Shown here in pieces: positions 36,268 through 38,197 of a DNA stretch of 64,000 bases. The DNA lies in NCBI RefSeq assembly GCF_014696345.1, contig NZ_JACJPY010000011.1:1-64000 (forward strand). The letters are read 5' to 3'. Below the pieces are notes generated by a model. It was not told the origin of the DNA and made no database searches. It saw only the letters and a program-made list of their open reading frames with translations. A program made the translations under genes and the position numbers. The DNA comes from Pseudanabaena cinerea FACHB-1277 (GTDB lineage Bacteria; Cyanobacteriota; Cyanobacteriia; Pseudanabaenales; Pseudanabaenaceae). Position 1 is the first letter of the stretch. Each line of letters begins with the position of its first letter.

Positions 36268-36726
36268 TCAAAGGTTTTCATTCTCATTAAATTTCCCGAT
36301 CGTTAATAAGCCTGTTGCCAATGAACCCATATAGGCTAATAGGAATCCGAAAAAAGCATCTTCCACGGCTTGCCAATGCGGTGCATTGCTAAATCCAGTT
36401 CTCGGTACATCAGTCAATATAACTTGCAGGTTTGAGTAACATCTAGAACCCTGTTTGAATCCATAACAATTGGCGGGAGAAACTAATAAGGTAGCGAGTT
36501 GCAAGGACAAAACCATACCGAATATCCAATATTTAATATGTCTGAACTGATATTTTTTACGCCGATTTTGCCAGCTAGCAACCCAACATATCAGCAGGAT
36601 AATTCCATAGAATGGCATTAGTAAAAATAGATAGAAAATCCAGCCAGCGATCGTATTGGAAACCACTAAAAACAGAATGCAGCTTACAACAATATAGACT
36701 GTGAGGAGCAAAGCAAATTTGATCAT
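36268..36726 (-). CDS. Hypothetical small membrane protein coupled to larC
   Basis: This 152-residue protein has about four hydrophobic segments (residues ~3-25, 29-50, 68-85, 128-148) and two cysteines in a loop (NCYGFKQGSRCY). I do not recognise the family. Its start codon overlaps the stop of the larC second half by four bases (ATGA), so it is translationally coupled and lies last in the larC operon. Nothing else indicates its role. Confidence 0.6.
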   Translation of the reverse strand: MIKFALLLTVYIVVSCILFLVVSNTIAGWIFYLFLLMPFYGIILLICWVASWQNRRKKYQFRHIKYWIFGMVLSLQLATLLVSPANCYGFKQGSRCYSNLQVILTDVPRTGFSNAPHWQAVEDAFFGFLLAYMGSLATGLLTIGKFNENENL

Positions 36727-37199
36727 GGTTTTATGGGAAGTTGGAATGCAGCTTTTACAGACTCTTGGATCATGCTTAAAGGCAGATTATGCGATCGCGC
36801 TAATTTGGCACAGTCTTCATATTCAGGCTGCACCGTGCAGAAACCATTACGCCAGGCAATTTTGACCCTAGCATTACCATATTCGGTGGTCACTTCCTGA
36901 AGTTCACGCTGGAGGATTTGCCGCTCTTGCTGACGCACCCGAATGCCTAGGGTGCTAGTTTCTTGAAAGAGAATCTGTTCGCAAATAGCTTGGCGATCGC
37001 AGGGACAAATCACCGTAATTAAGATGCCATGACGTGATTTTTTCATGGTAATTGCTTGGGTATAGACATCCAGCGCCCCCTGTGATAGCAACTGCTCCAT
37101 AGTGTAGGCGATCGCTTGGGCGGTCATATCATCCACCTGTGTCTCCAAAATACTAATCACTTCGGAGGTGGGTGCAAATTCTGAATCTTCCCAAATCAA
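36723..37199 (-). CDS. larC: LarC, C-terminal half (frame -1)
   Basis: This 158-residue frame is the C-terminal domain of the nickel pincer cofactor protein LarC: VISILETQVDDMTAQAI, ALDVYTQAITMKKSRHG, VICPCDRQAICEQILFQETSTLGIRVR and VQPEYEDCAKLARSHNLPL are family landmarks. It has no good start codon of its own (a TTG at 37199, no ribosome binding site). It continues upstream in frame (SLALQAAD) to an A9 run shared with the N-terminal half, so it is normally reached by a -1 shift. LarC inserts nickel into the pyridinium-dithiocarboxylate cofactor using CTP. The four-base overlap with the next gene shows it is translated. Confidence 0.85.
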   Translation of the reverse strand: MIWEDSEFAPTSEVISILETQVDDMTAQAIAYTMEQLLSQGALDVYTQAITMKKSRHGILITVICPCDRQAICEQILFQETSTLGIRVRQQERQILQRELQEVTTEYGNARVKIAWRNGFCTVQPEYEDCAKLARSHNLPLSMIQESVKAAFQLPIKP

Positions 37200-37216
37200 A
37201 TCAGCAGCTTGCAGAG

Positions 37217-38197
37217 CTAAGCTTTTTTTTTGCTAGAACCAAGCCATAGACGCAAAATGTTAGGGATTTCTAAGTCTTGACTGCCAGCCCCCAAGCCGAC
37301 TTTTTTGATGGTCATTAATGGGACTTCGCCAAAACTCTCGCTAATTGTAACAGCGATCGCTGCCCCTGTGGGCGTGACTAACTCTTTTCTGATGCCATTG
37401 TCAAAGGTCATGACGGCGTGAGTTTCCCATAACTTGAGGGTGGCAGGGGCAGGCACGGGCATAATGCCATGCTCGCAATGCACATAGCCGCCCCCCGCAG
37501 GCAATGGTGAGCAGTAAATCTGCTCGACCCCTAAATAGGCTAAGCCTGCACAGGTACAAACAATATCCACGATCGCATCCAGCGCCCCCACTTCATGAAA
37601 ATGTACCTGTTCGGGGGCAATGCCATGCACCAATCCCTCCGCGATCGCCAATTCTCGAAATGTGGCAATGCTCCATATTTCCACCTGTTTGGGCAGTTTA
37701 GCATTACGGATGATCTGCTCTATTGCGGGCAAATGACGATGGGCTTTATGAATTTGAGGAATAACTGCATGGGCATGGTTAAGCTCATGATCATGGGAAT
37801 GCGGGTGATCATGATGGTCATGGTGATTATGATCATTATGATCATCGACTACTAAGACTTGGACATCTGATTCAAATACCGATAGAGCCGCGATCTCGAT
37901 CGTTTCCTTATCAGGGTCGCGATCGGCAGCTATAGCCTTTACTATTTTCTTAGGTGGTTCACTAGGTTTTGGTTGCGGCTCTGGTGCTGGGCTTTCTAGG
38001 ATTTCAACGTGCATTTTTAAGGCTTCGATGCCCCTGCGCTTAACTGTTTCTGTCCATAATTTCACCTGACTCTCTAGCCCTAGTTTCTGCACAACGTCCT
38101 GCAAATATTCTAAAGGCACACCCGCATTAACCAATGCACCCAAACACATATCCCCTGCGATTCCTGTCGGGCAGTCCCAATAGGCAATGGTTCCCAT
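37217..38197 (-). CDS. larC: LarC, N-terminal half with His-rich insertion
   Basis: This 326-residue frame is the N-terminal domain of LarC (nickel insertion into the pincer cofactor). It begins MGTIAYWDCPTGIAGDMCLGAL, with the conserved CxxGIAGDM. It ends LRLWLGSSKKKA at a TAG three bases after nine A residues (37223-37231). A -1 slip there joins it to the C-terminal half for a ~490-residue protein. An acidic/proline-rich insert of ~60 residues ends in a histidine-rich stretch (DHNDHNHHDHHDHPHSHDHE, about 128-147), probably a metal store or sensor. HFHEVGALDAIVDI and GGGYVHCEHGIMPVPAP follow. I use the ATG at 38197 rather than the longer frame. Confidence 0.9.
   Translation of the reverse strand: MGTIAYWDCPTGIAGDMCLGALVNAGVPLEYLQDVVQKLGLESQVKLWTETVKRRGIEALKMHVEILESPAPEPQPKPSEPPKKIVKAIAADRDPDKETIEIAALSVFESDVQVLVVDDHNDHNHHDHHDHPHSHDHELNHAHAVIPQIHKAHRHLPAIEQIIRNAKLPKQVEIWSIATFRELAIAEGLVHGIAPEQVHFHEVGALDAIVDIVCTCAGLAYLGVEQIYCSPLPAGGGYVHCEHGIMPVPAPATLKLWETHAVMTFDNGIRKELVTPTGAAIAVTISESFGEVPLMTIKKVGLGAGSQDLEIPNILRLWLGSSKKKA
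37219..37234 (-). promoter_or_regulatory. larC: A9 slippery site joining the two larC frames
   Basis: On the minus strand the codons AGC AAA AAA AAA GCT TAG end the first frame. Slipping back one base gives A-AGC TTA GCT CTG, in frame with the second half. Nine A residues can support ribosomal or polymerase slippage. Confidence 0.7.

Follow-up and report, generated by a model that had tools for sequence, protein, structure and literature searches.

Probable programmed −1 ribosomal frameshifting at a conserved A9 run in larC of Pseudanabaena and related cyanobacteria

We analysed a 64,000-nucleotide stretch of the genome of Pseudanabaena cinerea FACHB-1277 (the window), in which larC lies on the minus strand in two reading frames that change over at a run of nine A residues. 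The features of the locus are as follows.

36723 to 38197, minus strand: whole recoded larC, predicted fused protein of 491 aa
37217 to 38197, minus strand: larC zero frame, LarC1, 326 aa, MGTIAYWD...LRLWLGSSKKKA, start at 38197
36723 to 37223, minus strand: −1 frame part, LarC2, 166 aa, SLALQAADLIWEDSEF...AAFQLPIKP, stop at 36723-36725
37223 to 37231, minus strand (T9 on the plus strand): A9 slippery run, AAA AAA AAA in the zero frame, A_AAA_AAA in register
37217 to 37219, minus strand: zero-frame stop TAG, three bases past A9
37233 to 37235, minus strand: −1 frame stop TAG, one base upstream of A9
37153 to 37222, minus strand: the 70 nt downstream of A9, without a stable hairpin here, versus 15 of 24 congeners with one

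In the zero frame the junction reads ...AGC AAA AAA AAA GCT TAG, and past the run the −1 frame continues as K-S-L-A-L-Q-A-A-D-L-I-W-E-D-S-E-F and then enters LarC2. The initial annotation had held that larC is split at the A9 run and that a −1 shift would restore the full enzyme, and both points were confirmed. Profile searches placed the LarC1 half on positions 1-238 of PF01969 (E 3.7e-89) and on TIGR00299 (nickel_LarC1; E 2.5e-64), and the LarC2 half on positions 240-374 of PF01969 (E 2e-49) and on NF052512 (nickel_LarC2; E 1.5e-44). The matches of both halves exceed the curated cut-offs and jointly span the whole family profile. Solved LarC structures were also matched by both halves, LarC2 matching chain 6bwo_A (E 6.8e-26) and its relatives. 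Judged from these matches, the two halves make up one complete predicted LarC of 491 aa, split over two frames. A 152-aa ORF (window 36268-36726, minus strand) comes next and is probably co-transcribed with larC, because its start codon overlaps the larC stop.

The −1 frame stop at one end and the zero-frame stop at the other confine the shift to the 13 nt in which both frames are open (37220-37232). This overlap holds a slippery sequence of the type X_XXY_YYZ, namely A_AAA_AAA in the zero-frame register. The 4.77-Mb genome contains 36 A9 matches on both strands, about 75 being expected under independence, and five of the 36 belong to a single sequence that recurs at contig ends. The run in larC is the sole A9 in the window. 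Since A9 is rare in the genome and single in the window, and since A9 or A10 stands at the homologous place throughout the genus copies, its presence at the larC junction is far beyond chance.

The same site was compared in 24 congeners that carry larC; several of the relatives analysed are MAGs, and counts over related genomes are not independent. The relatives do not have an uninterrupted gene, and the A-run is conserved: all 25 genus copies (24 relatives plus the window) carry A9 (21 copies) or A10 (4 copies) in phase 0 and have their LarC2 part in the −1 frame. The single-contig assemblies G001 and G023 show the same frame relation. All same-genus genomes found have larC split at the same point, except the 99%-complete G014, where a search for LarC2 gave no match and the LarC1 match was weak, which reflects either loss of larC or an assembly gap. 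The four A10 copies still need a −1 shift because their flanks differ, and a miscounted homopolymer therefore does not account for the split. The three Lys codons of the run are AAA in 75 of 75 cases, which is no P-value because the copies are related; elsewhere in LarC1, lysine is encoded by 279 AAA versus 150 AAG (65% AAA). Two additional LarC2 pieces were noticed: a second copy without an adjacent LarC1 match (G024:C17:476612-477025, L178), and a degraded copy that is interrupted by several stops and lies directly downstream of larC (G007:C9:40-246, L137).

We estimated selection on the two halves separately. Read in the −1 frame, LarC2 differs at rates of 0.175, 0.119 and 0.442 at codon positions 1, 2 and 3, and its median dN/dS is 0.14, versus 0.055 for LarC1. 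As these estimates indicate, purifying selection acts on both LarC1 and LarC2. No conserved start codon was found in the LarC2 frame among the genus copies. Loci L002 and L025 have no start at all in the stretch scanned, and in several copies the only ATG stands about 36 codons in, inside the LarC2 domain. The earlier observation that LarC2 has no credible start of its own is thus borne out, several relatives having no ATG, GTG or TTG between the run and the LarC2 domain.

The stimulatory structure that had been envisaged downstream of the run turned out to be a likely hairpin in most relatives and to be missing from the window's genome. The downstream fold has a z below −3 in 15 of the 25 genus copies; the 70 nt after A9 in the window's copy gave nothing significant when folded, and nine congeners besides it are without a strong hairpin. 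The corresponding linker of fused homologues reaches a z below −3 in 3 of 75, a difference (Fisher P 7e-9) between copies that are related and between folds with slightly different window choice, the control's anchor motif occurring in only 9 of the 25 genus copies. A symmetric-stem scan placed the apex of the best stem of all fifteen 26.5-28 nt past the first nine A's; these stems have 7-25 pairs. Covariation was scored in nine copies that belong to three unrelated sequence types; they were picked for having the hairpin, and the figures describe them only. Pairing holds in 94% of their cells, and 20 of the 25 pairs are changed on both sides, versus 40-48% pairing and 2-5 such pairs in slid controls. 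The hairpin core CATCGGGCNNNGCCCGATG occurs once per genome, and only at larC, in the 4 genomes, out of 7, that gave a match. For the commonest hairpin type, the idea of a dispersed palindromic repeat that landed in a neutral linker was rejected, the core being single-copy and at larC. It is geometrically possible that the hairpin and the T9 of the opposite strand form an antisense terminator, although this leaves the A9 of the hairpin-less copies unexplained.

The arrangement extends beyond the genus. Six genomes from five further genera of the family have A9 with LarC2 in the −1 frame. The site is the same as in the genus in G027, G034, G029 and G032, and A9 takes the two other codon registers in G028 (GCA AAA AAA AAC) and G030 (CAA AAA AAA ACA). 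G031 and its sister MAG SM2_2_1 (L094) have CCA AAA AAG followed directly by a TAG or TAA stop, that is, a canonical A_AAA_AAG with only six A's. Linker folds of the other split genera gave no downstream hairpin. In a fragmented MAG, G059 (L135), the run is A8 and LarC2 lies in the +1 frame, unlike the A9 and −1 of its congener G030; either the assembly is wrong here or the direction has really changed. In the genus g2 (G026, G033, G058), larC is in one frame without an A-run. The LarC tree recovers the family as a clade (SH-aLRT 97) with g2 nested beside G029 (93), and the simplest history suggested by this topology would therefore be one gain and one reversion, in g2, plus a separate gain in L102; the backbone within the family is poorly supported and the order of events among its genera unsure.

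Outside the family, nearly all matches listed in the class-wide sample are single-frame proteins with a length of at least about 390 aa. The short matches among those listed lie at contig starts, except in G141, where larC is broken elsewhere, inside LarC1. Three named-genome loci outside the family are split (L102, L124 and L125), of which L102 alone has its junction at an A-run. This locus, from the Phormidesmis-like LEGE 11477, has A9 and a −1 split (junction near 2837-2849) and is apparently an independent gain in a distant cyanobacterial lineage, with an indel possible in its single assembly. The splits of L124 and L125 may be MAG errors.

Several explanations other than frameshifting on the ribosome were weighed against these results. 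Nine-base homopolymers are typical error sites, and one extra base would give a single frame; the initial annotation had named an indel in the homopolymer as the main alternative. This alternative did not withstand the comparison, in which the frame change and the A-run were kept, single-contig assemblies included, in all 25 genus copies and in eight more from the family, in which the A10 copies still need −1, and in which codons, flanking stops and hairpin have evolved around the run. Sequencing or assembly error concealing a one-frame larC is rejected for the family by this conservation and by the selection on both frames, and we regard it as practically out of the question. Poly-A runs can be hypermutable. 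Replication slippage that alters the run length could thereby turn larC on and off as phase variation, or the gene could be a decaying pseudogene, and hypermutability of this kind is discussed in PMC3711429. However, no genus copy is in an in-frame state, and the dN/dS medians given above signify purifying selection; conservation together with selection on both frames leads us to reject both ideas as barely conceivable. A third possibility is that there are two proteins, with LarC2 started separately by re-initiation or translational coupling and acting as a subunit. The LarC2 frame does begin near the zero-frame stop, and coupling exists in some bacterial overlapping pairs, but the start codon is not conserved, being absent from L002 and L025 in the stretch scanned and present in others only inside the domain, and the A9 and the AAA-only lysines are left unexplained. 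An independent LarC2 start is rejected for want of a conserved start codon and seems very unlikely.

The weightiest alternative is programmed transcriptional slippage, in which the polymerase would add one A, or drop two, on A9, and part of the mRNA would be in one frame. Runs of at least nine A's are kept in all three registers where six or seven would do for the ribosomal heptamer, which also fits slippage during transcription. A or T homopolymers that reach a length of about 8-9 or more are taken as its mark, and A9 or A10 is present in all genus copies; A9 is moreover rare in this genome, and a second gene, described below, has an A9 −1 junction in four species. Some bacteria use transcriptional slippage in dnaX (PMC3711429). 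On the other side, the shift direction is −1 in all split A-run family copies but one MAG (G059), including the A10 copies, whereas under transcriptional realignment orthologues need not share a direction, and one direction among orthologues is a published criterion for ribosomal frameshifting (PMC3711429). The lineage of G031 and L094 manages with six A's, and the covarying structure sits downstream of the run. Being transcribed after the run, the hairpin could act on ribosomes but could not affect the polymerase by which the run was transcribed. Because the direction is constant, one lineage has A_AAA_AAG with six A's and the structure is downstream, we favour the ribosome over RNA polymerase and hold transcriptional slippage to be possible, yet on balance improbable; both may contribute, and lineages may differ. 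The original proposal of a programmed −1 frameshift is therefore supported, the ribosomal mechanism being favoured and polymerase slippage not fully separable from it by sequence.

Recoding of larC as such, whatever the mechanism, is close to certain, and the case is probably one of programmed −1 ribosomal frameshifting that would yield a 326-aa LarC1 and a 491-aa LarC. Ribosomes translating LarC1 would reach AAA AAA AAA, where a fraction would slip back by one base, both tRNA-Lys re-pairing on the A-run (A_AAA_AAA). The slipped ribosomes would go on through LarC2 and produce the nickel-inserting cyclometallase of 491 aa, presumably the active form; the unslipped ones would terminate after one further residue and set free LarC1 of 326 aa. 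The hairpin directly after the run probably raises efficiency in most congeners; in the window's genome, A9 would have to suffice without one. The ribosomal nature of the shift and its efficiency are inferred, and the reporter figures for DUF111 frameshifting stem from other organisms.

Frameshifting in this protein family has been described before. DUF111, which equals PF01969 and LarC, was one of four new frameshift families of Antonov et al. 2013, whose E. coli reporter showed frameshifting of up to 39% for it (PMC3711429). The locus studied here resembles that cluster in belonging to the same protein family, in having LarC1 and LarC2 as two adjacent ORFs in different frames, and in having homologues that are fused in other organisms; the cluster's members are not named in the text of PMC3711429 and may or may not include this cyanobacterial family. 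Our literature search found no paper treating LarC frameshifting under the LarC name, PMC3711429 speaking of DUF111. What is described here beyond that report is conservation across the family, a hairpin that covaries and a reversion to one frame. In Lactiplantibacillus plantarum, a −1 shift between LarC1 and LarC2 has reportedly been found in larC1/larC2. The enzyme and the LarC1/LarC2 split are the same there, but that organism is distant and has larA, whereas this cyanobacterium has LarB and LarE with no LarA found.

Two other systems offer parallels. Magnesium chelatase, also a metal-inserting enzyme, has an A-run or A_AAA_AAR site, at which −1 frameshifting rises in efficiency with run length, from 10% with 7 A's to 40% with 9 (PMC3711429), and its downstream structure is strong but variable in sequence (review PMC5009743). 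Its protein is unrelated to LarC, however, and nothing points to a common origin of the device. Thermus-type dnaX likewise has a poly-A run of 9-10 between two frames (PMC3711429). It acts at transcription, whereas larC has a one-direction shift, a hairpin in relatives and one relative with A_AAA_AAG; for dnaX itself, the mechanism differs between lineages (PMC3711429). On the present comparisons, the split larC of this cyanobacterial family is most likely an unusually well-conserved new case of the known LarC/DUF111 frameshifting.

A second A9 junction was found in the same genome, outside the window.

G000:C136:10790-10798 (L163 1001-1009, L173 1492-1500; also L174, L175, L176): second A9 junction

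Here a TPR ORF of 408 aa and an ORF of 557 aa with a CHAT domain (PF12770, E 1.9e-68) are joined at A9 in the −1 direction. The same junction is present in the congeners G014, G006 and G012, four genomes in all, and a nearby paralogue in the window's genome is in one frame. Separately, another A9 (L144, G000:C79 near 31425) lies inside regularly spaced repeats whose translation VSIPERVLEALK recurs in changing frames, and this array looks like a CRISPR array.

The genome of the window has LarB and LarE, and the search of it for LarA gave no match. Most cyanobacteria are without LarA, and Synechocystis LarB, LarC and LarE make the cofactor in E. coli, the LarC homologue being active (PMC11796402). 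A broader reading, which we offer as doubtful speculation, is that A9 serves the genus as a standing recoding device in two or more unrelated genes, larC and the TPR/CHAT gene among them, and that a hairpin fast-evolving in sequence and conserved in structure sets the LarC1:LarC ratio; lone LarC1 would then have a role of its own, e.g. in nickel binding or in control of cofactor supply without LarA.

These results mean that an apparently broken cyanobacterial larC has been kept so by selection across most of the family, and its annotation as two genes or as a pseudogene is therefore wrong. They extend LarC recoding to a lineage with nickel-pincer cofactor genes and, in the genome examined, no LarA. 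For measuring the requirements of a frameshift site, the family also offers a natural series of junctions, which comprises A9 by itself, A9 or A10 followed by a hairpin, A_AAA_AAG, and larC that has secondarily gone back to a single frame.
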